Shown here: in pieces, positions 8,114 through 15,006 of the stretch
Layout of the letters: every line of letters begins with the position of its first letter
Position numbering within the stretch: position 1 is the stretch's first letter
Notes under the pieces: model-generated
Told to the model about the DNA's origin: nothing
Database searches by the model: none
The model's input: only the letters and a program-made list of their open reading frames with translations
Translations under genes and position numbers: made by a program
NCBI GenBank assembly: GCA_003535195.1
Contig: DOHN01000102.1
Coordinates: 1 to 23,847, forward strand
Direction: 5' to 3'
Source: Ruminiclostridium sp.
Lineage (GTDB): Bacteria > Bacillota > Clostridia > DSM-8532
DNA: 23,847 bases

Positions 8114-10042
8114 ATGAGAGAATTAATTAGAAGTGACCCTTCCCTTTGCCAGGGCTGCAACAGGTGCATTCGCGTATGTCCGGTAGCAGAGGCAAACATC
8201 GCTTATTGCGAGGACGAAAACAACAAAATCCGAATTGACCCATCCAAGTGTATCCATTGCGGAGCCTGCATCAAAGCCTGCCAGCATGGAGCCCGGTATT
8301 ATGAAGATGATACCGTGAAGTTTTTTTCTGATCTCAAAAAGGGAGAGAAGATCTCTGTCATCGTGGCCCCTTCGAGCCGGGCCTGTTATGGGGATGATCT
8401 GAGAAGACTTCTGTCTTATCTGAGAAAGCTCGGCGTGGAATATATCTATGATGTCTCATTGGGGGCCGACATATGCACCTGGGCTCACATCAGGTACATC
8501 AAAAAATACAATCCTCCGGCCCTTATCACCCAGCCCTGCCCGGTTATAGTCAATTACATCACGCACTACAGAACAGAAATTCTGAAAAATCTGTCGCCGA
8601 TCCAGAGTCCCATGCTCTGCACGGCCATATACATGAAAAATAACAAGGGTATTACCGGTAAAATCGCCGCTTTGTCGCCCTGTATCGCAAAAGGCGATGA
8701 ATTTGATGATACCGGTCTAGTTCAGTATAATATAACCTTTTCAAAAGTGAAGGAATACCTTGTTAAAAACAAGGTTGTTTTGCCTAAAGAAAACGGTTCA
8801 TTTGATGATATCGAAGCCTCTCTCGGCGGTATTTACCCAATGCCCGGAGGATTAAAAGAAAATATCCAGTTTTATTTAGGCAACAGCCTGAGAATCGATA
8901 AGGCAGAAGGTCCATCGATGGTCTACAGTGCCCTTGATGAATATTCCACACAGGCTTTAAAAGACCTTCCTGCAATTTTTGACGTCCTCAACTGCGATCA
9001 GGGCTGTAATTTCGGTTCGGCCTGCAGCGTTGAGACTTCCCAGTTCGAGGTCAACAAGATCATGGACGATGTCCGGAAAAATGCCCAGAACAAGTATCAC
9101 AAAACTTTGCTTGCACAGATGACAAAGCTATTTGCAAAGTTCGACCGCCTTTTAAAGCTGAACGACTTTATTCGCAGTTATAAAGCAGACAAAGTTGATG
9201 AAATCCATATCACTGAAGATGATATTGAAAAAGCTTTTATCAGACTCAAAAAATTCAGCAGCGAACAGCGGGAGCAGAACTGTTTTGCCTGCGGATCCAT
9301 GACCTGCCGCAAAATGGCGGAGAAGATTGCCAAGGGAATCAATACCGAAAACAATTGCATAGAAAAGGCCAAGCAGGACATTAAAGATGAGCATGGCGCA
9401 TATATGCAAGCTTATCAGGGAACCAATGAACTGCTTTCTAAAAATACCGTCCTTTCCCGGGATCTTGGAGAATATGCGAAAAAAACGCTCCATGCTTTTG
9501 CCATGATCCGGGACAATATTTCAGAGATTACTCAGAATAATGAAACCAATACTCAGGCAATGGGCGATTTAGTAAACGGGTTATCAGAAATAAAGGATCT
9601 CTCCGCACTGATGATAAAATCCCTGGCTTCGGTGGAGAAGGCTATTTCTACGTACGTCAATATGTCGAATATCATCATTGAGGTGGCGGATCAGACCAAT
9701 ATGCTGGCTTTAAACGCCTCCATTGAAGCCGCGCGGGCTGGAGAACAGGGGAAGGGCTTTTCAGTGGTTGCCGAGGAGATCAGAAAGCTTGCTCAAAACT
9801 CCCAGAAAGCTGTTGAAGAAGCTAATTTGAATCAGGAATTTTCCCTCGGGGCCATTGAATCCATAAAAAAAGCCAGTTCCGATGTAGATAAGTCCATCGC
9901 CAATGCCAACAGCCATATCGAGCATATATTCACTTCAGCACAGGAAACGGTGTCCAAATCAGAAGAGATCGTCATGAGCACCAACTCCCTTTTGAGCCAG
10001 TCCCATGACATAGACCGAATCATATCCGGTATCCGAAGCTAA
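8114..10042 (+). CDS. [FeFe]-hydrogenase-like sensor fused to a methyl-accepting chemotaxis domain
   Basis: The 642-residue protein has no membrane helix. Two ferredoxin motifs lie at C12-C15-C18-C22 and C46-C49-C52-C56. Residues 75-310 are an [FeFe]-hydrogenase large-subunit domain. All four cysteines expected to hold the H-cluster [4Fe4S] unit are visible: C142 ([10 protein letters not shown]), C190 ([11 protein letters not shown]), C294 and C298 (NCDQGCNFG). The proton-relay cysteine of catalytic enzymes (TSCCP) is replaced by Pro (TQPCP). A four-Cys Fe-S motif follows (C390, C393, C398, C415). Residues 430-642 are helical with a standard chemotaxis hairpin tip ([20 protein letters not shown]). 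The pattern matches sensory rather than catalytic hydrogenases, with output to CheA/CheW. H2 versus general redox sensing cannot be settled from sequence. GGAG precedes the ATG. Confidence 0.93.
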
Positions 10043-11193: not shown

Positions 11194-14100
11194 TTAAAAC
11201 AGGCACAGCTGACTGCTTTGATCCAGTCCCTTAAAAGCGCCGTGGTTCTCAAGGATTTCGATGACCGCCTTTGAAACGCCGGAACGCATCTTTACATCCT
11301 CAATGGAAATAAACTCTCCGCCTTTGCCTCTGGCTGCCACTATATTATTGGCAGCGGCCGCTCCCAAGCCCTGCAGGGCTGTAAACGGCGGAAGAATGCC
11401 CTCTTCGGTTATGGTGAATTTTGTGGCTTCGGACTTGTATAAGTCCACCGGCAGACATTTAATTCCCCGGACATACATTTCCTGCGCCACCTCCAAAATG
11501 GTCTGCAAATCCTTTTCTTTGGCAGTGGCGGCGTTTCCTTTATGCTCGATTTCTTCAATGGCTCTCTTTACTGCATCCAGGCCTTTTGAAACAATGTTTG
11601 CATCAAAAGAGTCCGCCCTTACCGAGAAATATGTACAGTAAAAAGCTTCCGGATAATACACCTTGAACCAGGCAATGCGGAAGGCCATCATGACATAGGC
11701 CGCCGCATGGGCCTTAGGAAACATATACTTGATCTTCTTGCAGGAATCGATATACCAGTCGGGAACGTTGTTCTCACGCATCAAGGCCTCATTTTCAGGG
11801 CTGAGGCCTTTTCCCTTACGGACACTTTCCATGATCTTAAAGGATGTTAAAGGCGGCAGTCCCCTCTGAATGAGATAAAGCATAATATCGTCACGGGTGG
11901 AAATGACCTCTTTAAGCGTTACGGTTCCCGCTTCCACCAGTTCCTGGGCATTATTGATCCAGACATCGGTCCCGTGGGACAAGCCCGAAATACGCATGAG
12001 CTCTGCGAAAGTCTTGGGCATGGTATCCACCAGCATCTGCCGCACAAACTTGGTGCCGAATTCGGGCACACCGTAGGTTCCCACCAGGCTGTTAATATCC
12101 TCCGGTTTGACACCCAACGGCTCGGTGCCGGAAAAGATGCCCATGGTCTTCTTCTCACCGATGGGTATGGTTTGGGCATCAATACCGGTCAGGTCCTCCA
12201 GCATACGGATCACCGTGGGATCATCATGGCCCAGAATATCCAGCTTCAGAATACGGCCGCTGATGGAGTGATAATCAAAGTGGGTGGTCGTTATTTCCGA
12301 ACTGGTGTCATCGGCTGGCCGCTGGATGGGTGTAAAGTCATATATGTCCTTGTGATGGGGACAGACCATGACACCGCCGGGATGCTGGCCCGTCGTTCTT
12401 TTGATGCCGGTGCAGCCCGCTGCCAGGCGTTCGGTTTCAGCCCGGGTGCCGATAATATTCTTTTCTTCCATATATTTTTTGACAAAGCCATAGGCCGTTT
12501 TCTCGGCAATGGTGGCAATGGTTCCTGCCTTAAAGGTATAGCCCGTCCCGAAAAGCTCTTCGGTGTATTTATGGGCCTTGGCCTGATATTCTCCCGAAAA
12601 GTTCAAGTCGATATCGGGTTCCTTATCCCCGTCAAAGCCCAGGAATGTCTCAAAGGGAATATCATATCCGTCTTTGATGAGCGGTTCCCCGCATACCGGA
12701 CAAACCTTTTCAGGCAGGTCGAAACCGCAGGATACAGTGGCATCCTTATCAAAAAACTCCGAATACTTGCATTTGCCGCACCGGTAATGGGCCGGCAGCG
12801 AGTTTACTTCGGTGATTCCAATGAGATATGCCACAAAGCTGGAGCCCACCGAACCTCTGGAACCTACCAGATAACCGTCGCTGAGGGATTTATTAACCAG
12901 CTTTTGCGCAATGATGTACATGACCGAGAAACCGTTTTTGATAATGGAATTCAATTCCTTTTCAACACGCAGCCGGACGATCTCAGGCAGCGGATCTCCA
13001 TAAAGCTCCCGGACCTTTGATTCGCTCATTTTCTTGATATCCTCCTCGGCCCCGTCGATATGAGGAGGGTAGGTTCCGCTGGGAATGGGCTGAACCACTT
13101 CTATTTCATCGGCAATTTTATTGGTGTTGGCAACGACCACCTCATAAGCCTTTTCTTCACCAAGATAAGAAAACTCGCCCAGCATTTCCTCGGTGGTCCT
13201 GAAATAGATAGGAGCCTGGAAGGAGGCATCCTTATAGCCCTGGCCCGTCTGTAAAATTTCCCTGTAGATGGCATCGTCGGGATCCAGGAAATGCACGTCG
13301 CAGGTGGCCACTACCGGCTTATTGAGGCGCTCCCCAAGCGCTACAATACGGCGGTTCAGGTCTTTAAGCCCCTCTTCGTCGGCGACAAGGCCTTCACGGA
13401 CGAGGAAATTATTATTGCCGATGGGCTGGATCTCCAGGTAGTCATAATAGGAGCCGATACGGTCCATTTCCTCCTGAGACGCCCCGTTTAACATGGCGCG
13501 GAAAAGCTCGCCGGCCTCGCAGGCGCTTCCGATGATAAGTCCTTCCCTGTATTTTTCAAAGAGGGATTTGGGAACCCTTGGCCTTTTATAAAAATAATTT
13601 AAGTGGCTTTCAGAAACAATGCGATACAGGTTTTTAAGGCCCACCTGATTTTTTACCAGAATGACGGCATGGTAGGTGTCACAATGCTTATAGTCCAGCT
13701 CGCCCTTCCCGTTAAATCTCTCATTGGCAATAAAATAGGCTTCCATGCCATATAGAATTTTGATTTCCTGGTTTTTCTTCTTTTTCAGGTCACCCACAGT
13801 GTTTTGGGCTTCGGGATAGGCCTGCACCACACCATGATCCGTAATGGCAACCGCGGTATGGCCCCAGCCGGCAGCCCGGCTGATGAGATCCTTCGCACTG
13901 GTGATGGCGTCCAGCTGGCTCATCTGTGTATGCAAATGGAGTTCAACCCGCTTCACGGGAGCATTGTCGGTACGCTTTTTCTCCGTCTTGCTTTCTATCA
14001 GCAGAATATCCCGTGCCAGCACAACAAGCTCCTTTGAGAACATATCATACTGGGCCTCACCGTCAAGCCGGATATTTTGGCCCTTTACGATTTTTTCGGC

Positions 14101-15006
14101 GATGACGGGAAGCTCTTCCTCCCTGGGAAAAAGCTTGCAGGTAAGGGAGGAGGAATAATCGGTTATATCGAACATGACCAAAATCCTTCCGGATTTCAGC
14201 TGTCTTTGATCGGTCTTTAAAATCTGGCCTTCAATGGCGACAAAACCGGAATTCACATCGACCTGATCCATTTTCATGACCTGGCCTCTGATACCCCGGC
14301 CAAAAATAAGATTGGGATCCTTCTCCTTTTTCTGGGATCTGTATTTGGAGGAGCCGTTATCCCCTTTATATGGAGCCGGCTTATAAGGTTTGCCGGAATC
14401 TCCGACACTTTTTTGGGGTACCGGAACAGGGTTCGAAGCCATCATTTCAGCAACGGCACGGGCTTCGACCTGCTGCTTTTTAGCAATATAGTCCACTACT
14501 TTCCCGGTAGCCGGAGCATCTATAAAGACGACCCTGGCTTCATGATTAAAAAGCTCTCCCATGGCCTGTTCCAGGCATTGACCCACGCCCGCCGACGAAA
14601 GAATAGCCGAGGACTGGTTCTTTAAATATACCGAAAGCTTTCTTCCCGAGAGCTTAAACTGGGCCCCTTCAAAAAAATCCAGCATATGCGGCTTTTCAGA
14701 TTTGATTCTATCTAAGAGAAATTCCTGGCGCCAGCCCTGGGGCTCCTCGGTCAGCGGGCATTTGAAGCCCGGCACGATATTAACCTGAACTGAAAAATGT
14801 TTTGAAATAGCCCGCTCAAGCTGTGTAATCTGGTCCGGCATGACGCTGTCATAGCATTCAATATGAAGATCTATCTTTTGATCGGATTTGTAATAGCAGA
14901 GATTATCAATAAAAGCACTTGCAAAAGTCTTTTCCAGTTTTTCTTTTTCAATAACATTTTTAAACGCCTCGCAAAGCGGCGACTTCTTGAGAACGTCTTT
15001 ATCCAT
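11194..15006 (-). CDS. polC: DNA polymerase III alpha subunit PolC lacking the internal 3'-5' exonuclease domain
   Basis: PolC is the replicative polymerase of Firmicutes. N-terminal domains fill about 1-230 and an OB fold about 240-340. The PHP domain spans about 352-580, palm and fingers about 620-1110, and the helix-hairpin-helix and tail follow. Palm aspartates are D798 and D800 (PDIDLNFSG) and D923 (LKLDILGHDD). A four-Cys zinc site (C743, C746, C769, C772) and a C-terminal clamp motif QLCLF are present. The usual length is about 1430-1450; this one is 1270. The difference is one missing block: after YGMEAYFI (419-426) the chain goes straight to DTYHAVILVKN (443-453), where relatives carry the DEDD exonuclease (FDVETTGL motif). 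PHP metal residues H357, H359, D366, H391, E422, H446, C496, D570 and H572 are all kept. AGGAAG precedes the ATG. Confidence 0.97.
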   Translation of the reverse strand: MDKDVLKKSPLCEAFKNVIEKEKLEKTFASAFIDNLCYYKSDQKIDLHIECYDSVMPDQITQLERAISKHFSVQVNIVPGFKCPLTEEPQGWRQEFLLDRIKSEKPHMLDFFEGAQFKLSGRKLSVYLKNQSSAILSSAGVGQCLEQAMGELFNHEARVVFIDAPATGKVVDYIAKKQQVEARAVAEMMASNPVPVPQKSVGDSGKPYKPAPYKGDNGSSKYRSQKKEKDPNLIFGRGIRGQVMKMDQVDVNSGFVAIEGQILKTDQRQLKSGRILVMFDITDYSSSLTCKLFPREEELPVIAEKIVKGQNIRLDGEAQYDMFSKELVVLARDILLIESKTEKKRTDNAPVKRVELHLHTQMSQLDAITSAKDLISRAAGWGHTAVAITDHGVVQAYPEAQNTVGDLKKKKNQEIKILYGMEAYFIANERFNGKGELDYKHCDTYHAVILVKNQVGLKNLYRIVSESHLNYFYKRPRVPKSLFEKYREGLIIGSACEAGELFRAMLNGASQEEMDRIGSYYDYLEIQPIGNNNFLVREGLVADEEGLKDLNRRIVALGERLNKPVVATCDVHFLDPDDAIYREILQTGQGYKDASFQAPIYFRTTEEMLGEFSYLGEEKAYEVVVANTNKIADEIEVVQPIPSGTYPPHIDGAEEDIKKMSESKVRELYGDPLPEIVRLRVEKELNSIIKNGFSVMYIIAQKLVNKSLSDGYLVGSRGSVGSSFVAYLIGITEVNSLPAHYRCGKCKYSEFFDKDATVSCGFDLPEKVCPVCGEPLIKDGYDIPFETFLGFDGDKEPDIDLNFSGEYQAKAHKYTEELFGTGYTFKAGTIATIAEKTAYGFVKKYMEEKNIIGTRAETERLAAGCTGIKRTTGQHPGGVMVCPHHKDIYDFTPIQRPADDTSSEITTTHFDYHSISGRILKLDILGHDDPTVIRMLEDLTGIDAQTIPIGEKKTMGIFSGTEPLGVKPEDINSLVGTYGVPEFGTKFVRQMLVDTMPKTFAELMRISGLSHGTDVWINNAQELVEAGTVTLKEVISTRDDIMLYLIQRGLPPLTSFKIMESVRKGKGLSPENEALMRENNVPDWYIDSCKKIKYMFPKAHAAAYVMMAFRIAWFKVYYPEAFYCTYFSVRADSFDANIVSKGLDAVKRAIEEIEHKGNAATAKEKDLQTILEVAQEMYVRGIKCLPVDLYKSEATKFTITEEGILPPFTALQGLGAAAANNIVAARGKGGEFISIEDVKMRSGVSKAVIEILENHGAFKGLDQSSQLCLF

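Follow-up and report, generated by a model that had tools for sequence, protein, structure and literature searches.

The polC gene and the missing exonuclease domain

A DEDDh exonuclease (Exo) inserted in the PHP domain is a hallmark of PolC, and it appeared to be absent from the PolC encoded in the window, the whole stretch of 23,847 nucleotides analysed here. This raises the questions of whether the domain is truly missing, how often such a change has occurred, and which activity would proofread in its place. The window contains one polC gene (11194-15006, minus strand), which encodes 1270 aa without an internal stop. The minus-strand gene order is hisS, aspS, lepB, polC, and purine nucleoside phosphorylase, and the same four genes neighbour polC in three relatives (L001, L004, and L005). 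Elsewhere in the window, a plus-strand frame at 8114-10042 joins an iron hydrogenase large-subunit domain with ferredoxin clusters to a signalling domain of methyl-accepting chemotaxis proteins, an arrangement that presumably resembles the chemotaxis-linked group C hydrogenases. The features of polC are as follows.

11194..15006, minus strand: polC, PolC-type DNA polymerase III alpha subunit without Exo, 1270 aa (ORF, Pfam, NCBIfam)
14005..14241, minus strand: OB-fold domain, residues 256-334 (PF01336, score equal to the cut-off)
13735..13953, minus strand: PHP part preceding the usual Exo insertion, about residues 352-424 (Pfam, alignment)
13684..13734, minus strand: junction loop, residues 425-441, at the usual DEDDh exonuclease site (alignments)
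13087..13683, minus strand: PHP part following the usual Exo insertion, about residues 442-640 (Pfam, alignment)
13930..13938, minus strand: PHP metal ligands H357 and H359 (alignment)
13909..13911, minus strand: PHP metal ligand D366 (alignment)
13834..13836, minus strand: PHP metal ligand H391 (alignment)
13741..13743, minus strand: PHP metal ligand E422 (alignment)
13669..13671, minus strand: PHP metal ligand H446, directly past the junction (alignment)
13519..13521, minus strand: PHP metal ligand C496 (alignment)
13291..13299, minus strand: PHP ligands D570 and H572 (alignment)
12607..12615, minus strand: palm aspartates D798 and D800 in PDIDLNF (alignment, sequence)
12238..12240, minus strand: palm aspartate D923 in KLDILGHDD (alignment, sequence)
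11197..11211, minus strand: C-terminal QLCLF, resembling a beta-clamp binding motif (sequence; QxxLF motif as given in the available text of PMC12926913)

The protein scored 1601 bits against NF001688 and 1456 bits against TIGR01405, far above the curated cut-offs of 873 and 1043, respectively; together with the uninterrupted frame, this agrees with a preliminary description of the locus, in which the rest of PolC was intact and in frame. The OB, PHP, polymerase, finger, and HhH domains were all found by Pfam, and the N-terminal domains gave weak matches under the Pfam cut-offs. The palm aspartates are present (PDIDLNF starts at residue 797 and KLDILGHDD at 921), and the stretch from D798 to D923 was aligned to PolC of G. 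kaustophilus without a gap. Both NCBIfam PolC models skipped the Exo segment, their best stretches starting downstream of it (residues 436-1270, corresponding to model positions 372-1211, for TIGR01405), and a genome search with TIGR01405 gave two blocks, model positions 6-173 and 372-1211. PF00929 was not found in the protein at E ≤ 0.01 in the Pfam scan. A hidden divergent Exo inside the window PolC was considered and excluded, as a profile based on the Exo domains of 86 PolCs, most of them clostridial, gave no match to the protein at E ≤ 1 with filters off. The insertion site, which holds ~205 residues in most Exo-bearing PolCs, is occupied by a 17-residue loop that is conserved among relatives. 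The preliminary description had reported a PolC without its exonuclease domain, proposed a domain search for a DnaQ-like exonuclease, and placed a junction of about 16 residues at 13678..13735. The search, now run, found nothing, the gap in the NCBIfam models points the same way, and the position of the loop differs from that first given by no more than two codons.

Distribution of the gap among relatives

Relatives of the window genome are named as Clostridia. In a close-relative set of 61 genomes (the window genome and 60 relatives), its family, f1, comprises 32 genomes and the sister family, f2, a single genome. Every PolC that was seen across the junction in genus g1, in family f1, and in the f2 genome showed the Exo gap; for G009 no PolC-level match was listed, and in G021 and G026 PolC is split over two contigs, one of which carries the gapped junction. 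The possibility that close relatives all carry Exo at this place, raised in the preliminary description, thus turned out not to apply. Family f1 includes the cultured, non-pathogenic thermophile Thermoclostridium stercorarium; PolC of the closed f1 genome G020 is 99.92% identical to the T. stercorarium PolC, and a protein of that name among the listed homologues (P0072) is exo-less. Frameshift or misassembly was ruled out by the in-frame ORF and the same gap in family relatives, in keeping with the clean domain loss originally described, and the absence of Exo from the window PolC was confirmed as real and not an assembly artefact.

Four genomes of other families in the 61-genome set also lack Exo (G033, G042, G045, and G054). 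Among the best 80 of 588 relatives, 14 were exo-less (L001-L007, L016, L030, L032, L039, L050, L051, and L065, with L003 scored from the tblastn span only and L039 from a partial protein), 62 had an insert of normal size, and 4 were too short to score. One of the exo-less loci, L006, belongs to the cultured Heliobacterium mobile. A class-wide set of 137 genomes (the window genome and others at least 95% complete) contained 21 exo-less genomes, 104 in which Exo is present, 4 whose insert is odd, and 8 that gave no PolC-level match. PF00929 was absent in 88 of the 120 homologues listed, of 7996 scored, including the first 60 and the window's own, according to a hand count over precomputed domains in which some proteins are partial. 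The absence of Exo noted at the outset is real, but such a PolC is less unusual than was first supposed, exo-less examples having been published in 2013 (PMC3919608).

As a separate observation, the PolCs of three genomes of one genus in family f41 (L163, L164, and L165 in G159, G143, and G084, respectively) are ~1650-1700 aa long and have an insert of ~320 residues at the Exo site, which was unmatched by the 86-sequence Exo profile. A profile-profile probability of 77% over 49 columns suggests that this insert may be a decayed Exo whose catalytic DxE is lost. It would be an exception to the pattern described in the available text of PMC12926913, in which PHP rather than the DnaQ proofreader gets inactivated in Pol III.

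Repeated changes of the Exo state

On a tree of 125 rows built with FastTree, with the Exo columns left out, parsimony requires at least 12 changes of the Exo state, of which 9 are forced by well-supported branches. On a second tree of 56 rows (IQ-TREE, mixture model, quick search), whose rows were hand-picked with the first tree in view, it changes 12 times, with 5 changes forced. The window's own clade represents one change event (16 rows on the first tree, support 99). A single clade of the 21 exo-less rows, a group defined by the trait and not taken from a tree, was rejected (p-AU 1e-5). Thus the mapping of exo-less PolC on a tree of Clostridia, as proposed at the outset, revealed several separate changes. 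The exo-less rows are nested among Exo-bearing rows on both trees, and Exo has one shared insertion site with shared DEDDh residues (DEDHD at the same PHP site in 84 Exo-bearing rows out of 86; in the remaining two, that end is incomplete or damaged). We therefore read these changes as losses. Transfer of whole polC genes may be part of the pattern.

The PHP metal site and the partner polymerase

The PHP ligands, numbered after Table 1 of Barros 2013 in the form available, are H357, H359, D366, H391, E422, H446, C496, D570, and H572 in the window PolC. This series, HHDHEHCDH, agrees with the nine-ligand motif HHDHEH[C/H]DH of PMC12926913 and bears out the earlier claim that all nine positions are present, the DxH Asp included. 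All nine were intact in the 43 scorable exo-less PolC rows (40 distinct, with three identical pairs) and showed no variation when the PHP domains of 12 exo-less PolCs from several lineages were aligned; they were also complete in 83 of 84 Exo-bearing rows and in all three ghost-insert rows. The sole deviation among the Exo-bearing rows is Oceanobacillus PolC (L080), which has Asn in place of the DxH Asp, as does G. kaustophilus PolC (N743) at the position of D570; the Asp is kept in 43/43 exo-less rows and is residue 544 in T. stercorarium PolC. By motif, D570 may be equated with D226 of M. tuberculosis DnaE1. Slower evolution of PHP after Exo loss was considered as a mark of compensation and discarded, as exo-less branches showed no detectable slowing of PHP (PHP/Pol length ratio 1.19 versus 1.33, p 0.13). 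Because Exo-bearing clostridial PolC keeps PHP too and the PHP/Pol ratio does not differ, an intact PHP alone is no evidence of compensation.

DnaE is present in the window genome, as is mutL. The PHP domain of DnaE was intact in all ten full-length proteins sampled from families f1 and f2 and in both of those sampled from Exo-bearing genomes, suggesting that the partner polymerase is probably DnaE1, not DnaE3. The window genome's own dnaE, on contig C62 (L089), is incomplete, with two non-identical dnaE pieces joined via runs of N, and the scaffold looks chimeric.

Exonucleases elsewhere in the genomes

We examined the genomes with three profiles: RNase_T (E ≤ 0.001), a profile of the PolC-type Exo and two stand-alone exonucleases (E ≤ 1), and one of a helicase-fused DEDD domain. 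RNase_T had no match in 25 of the 32 family genomes, the window genome included, and none of the three profiles gave a convincing DEDD exonuclease in the window genome, a fragmented assembly in which a dnaQ may have been missed because it is only 81.6% complete. Across the family, 17 of 32 genomes, including the closed G020, gave no convincing DEDD exonuclease by the three profiles, with weak PolC-Exo/DnaQ matches in G030 (E 0.08) and G000 (E 0.4, 111-aa frame). Some DEDD-type match occurred in the other 15 (RNase_T in 7, the helicase-fused domain in 12, both in 4). The idea of a family entirely without a DEDD exonuclease was therefore abandoned as too strong, the profile search having exposed ~1600-aa proteins with a divergent DEDD domain. 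Since the first profile missed this helicase-fused kind, further divergent DEDD domains may be missed.

One such ~1600-aa chain (L195:1009-5817, minus strand) combines a divergent DEDD exonuclease with a RecQ-like and a UvrD-like helicase; the domains were scanned in L195 only, and the DEDD domain, missed by the Pfam RNase_T model, was called by eye and profile. Similar frames lie in L194, L197, and L198, and the N-terminal domain of the fusion was found in 12/32 family genomes; in 9 of these 12, the frame exceeds 1400 aa. The one copy scanned has the appearance of a helicase for repair or defence. In G012, a genome of genus g1 whose PolC lacks Exo, a stand-alone 277-aa DnaQ similar to the PolC Exo domain is encoded at L189:4224-5057 (minus strand), among neighbours that look chromosomal by eye; it may be a supply in trans or a later gain. 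The exo-less G042, of another family, has a DnaQ-BRCT protein.

A search of 32 genomes (G020-G031 left out) with PF01612, the Pol I type exonuclease, found none in the window genome and mostly weak matches to Pol I-sized frames in the family, with stronger matches in G019 (one, 646-aa frame) and G015 (two strong, 386- and 582-aa frames). Across the class, RNase_T proteins other than PolC were present in 5/20 exo-less and 51/104 Exo-bearing genomes (Fisher p 0.054), a comparison that treats genomes as independent, counts the Exo-bearing matches without individual inspection, and misses the helicase-fused domain. Enrichment of RNase_T proteins, considered as a sign of supply in trans, was thus not seen in exo-less genomes, which if anything have fewer. 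The preliminary description had suggested proofreading either by PHP or in trans. We favour PHP, given that no convincing DEDD exonuclease turned up in the window genome and that exo-less genomes show no surplus of RNase_T proteins; yet PHP is equally intact in Exo-bearing PolC, and the initial interpretation is partly supported.

Proposed account and alternatives

We consider it probable that Exo loss is lineage-wide and that the PHP domain of PolC proofreads, with the DnaE1 PHP and mismatch repair behind it. On this account, which draws on sequence comparison, an inserted Mg-type DEDDh exonuclease would have been lost once, prior to the split of family f1 from its sister family, and several further clostridial lineages would have undergone similar changes independently. 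The window's lineage would have retained the palm, fingers, OB domain, N-terminal region, and a tail resembling a clamp motif. A misincorporated 3' end would be removed by the three-metal site in the PHP of PolC, as in M. tuberculosis DnaE1; the PHP domain of DnaE1 would proofread as well, with mismatch repair through MutL as a backstop behind both. Most Clostridia have three apparently active proofreaders, according to the available text of PMC12926913, so that the loss of one would leave two, which would explain why it is tolerated. A broader version is put forward more tentatively, with slightly less than even confidence: the replisome of the whole family would consist of PolC and DnaE1 without a DnaQ-fold exonuclease, the PHP of PolC would be a true metal-dependent proofreader, and, being the older one, it would have allowed the Mg-type Exo to be discarded repeatedly in Clostridia and not in Bacilli, where the PHP site is often broken.

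An alternative that we regard as unlikely, and yet the most serious, is that PolC does not proofread at all, its PHP only holding the fold, and that fidelity comes from the DnaE1 PHP and mismatch repair. The near-universal PHP ligands of Exo-bearing PolC allow conservation to be structural, the PHP of E. coli Pol III, several of whose ligands are lost, plays a structural part (PMC3666897, as available), mutL is present, and a PHP/Pol rate signature is absent. However, a purely structural PHP would permit Asn in place of the DxH Asp, as in G. kaustophilus and Oceanobacillus, and no exo-less row has it; Asn at this position leaves M. tuberculosis DnaE1 inactive with its metals retained (PMC5636811). 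Less likely again is proofreading in trans by a separate DEDD exonuclease. The DnaQ of G012, the DnaQ-BRCT protein of G042, and the helicase-fused domain speak for it, but the window genome has no convincing match and the closed G020 none at all by the three profiles, RNase_T enrichment is lacking, and the fusion, judged by the copy scanned, resembles a repair or defence helicase.

That Exo was never present in the ancestor of the exo-less PolCs, a primitive state, is very improbable: change counts alone do not tell gain from loss, but the nesting on both trees, the rejection of a single clade, and the shared site and residues of Exo all argue against it. An assembly deletion of ~550-600 bases, conceivable in a fragmented assembly with one scaffold joining two unlike dnaE pieces, is a negligible prospect given the same junction in family relatives, including a closed genome, and a conserved loop in place of the domain.

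Comparison with known systems

The preferred account touches the question of whether the PHP of PolC can proofread; in G. kaustophilus PolC one ligand of this site is mutated. PolCs that lack Exo by nature and have an intact PHP, one of them belonging to a cultured species whose genome is closed, would permit a direct test without domain removal. That the state changed repeatedly inside a single class would hint that PolC can do without its embedded DEDDh exonuclease when PHP is intact, a point that bears on how proofreaders succeed one another. In the literature searched, we found no report of PolC PHP exonuclease activity, and no printed account of repeated independent Exo loss or of the pattern in the T. 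stercorarium family.

Exo-less PolC was reported in 2013 by Timinskas et al. (PMC3919608), in the available text of which 6% of PolC sequences lack Exo, all of them from Clostridia or Negativicutes apart from one additional copy in Thermotogae, and those of Clostridia and Negativicutes are paired with DnaE1; the absence from Bacilli assumed above rests on the same source. The window PolC fits this variant, with no Exo insertion and with OB, PHP, polymerase core, and HhH intact, alongside DnaE as in the Clostridia described there, and no structural difference from that description was seen. By its sequence, it is thus an addition to the exo-less PolCs known since then, and what is added here is the family-wide case, the repeated independent changes, and the survey of alternative exonucleases.

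DnaE1 of M. tuberculosis proofreads by its PHP, and its D226N variant is inactive though the metals are kept (PMC5636811, as available). It resembles the window PolC in having nine PHP ligands and no DnaQ-like domain in the chain; it differs in belonging to the DnaE1 class, with activity and zinc demonstrated. Mycobacteria are without mismatch repair, in contrast to the window genome with its mutL. Among solved structures, G. kaustophilus PolC, 3F2B, matches best (1226 bits), with an alignment from residue 250 to the end. This polymerase, with one PHP ligand mutated, has no PHP exonuclease activity according to PMC5636811. In 3F2B, Exo was removed for crystallization (PMC12592400, as available) and the PHP carries N743, whereas in the window PolC the absence of Exo is natural and the corresponding residue is Asp.
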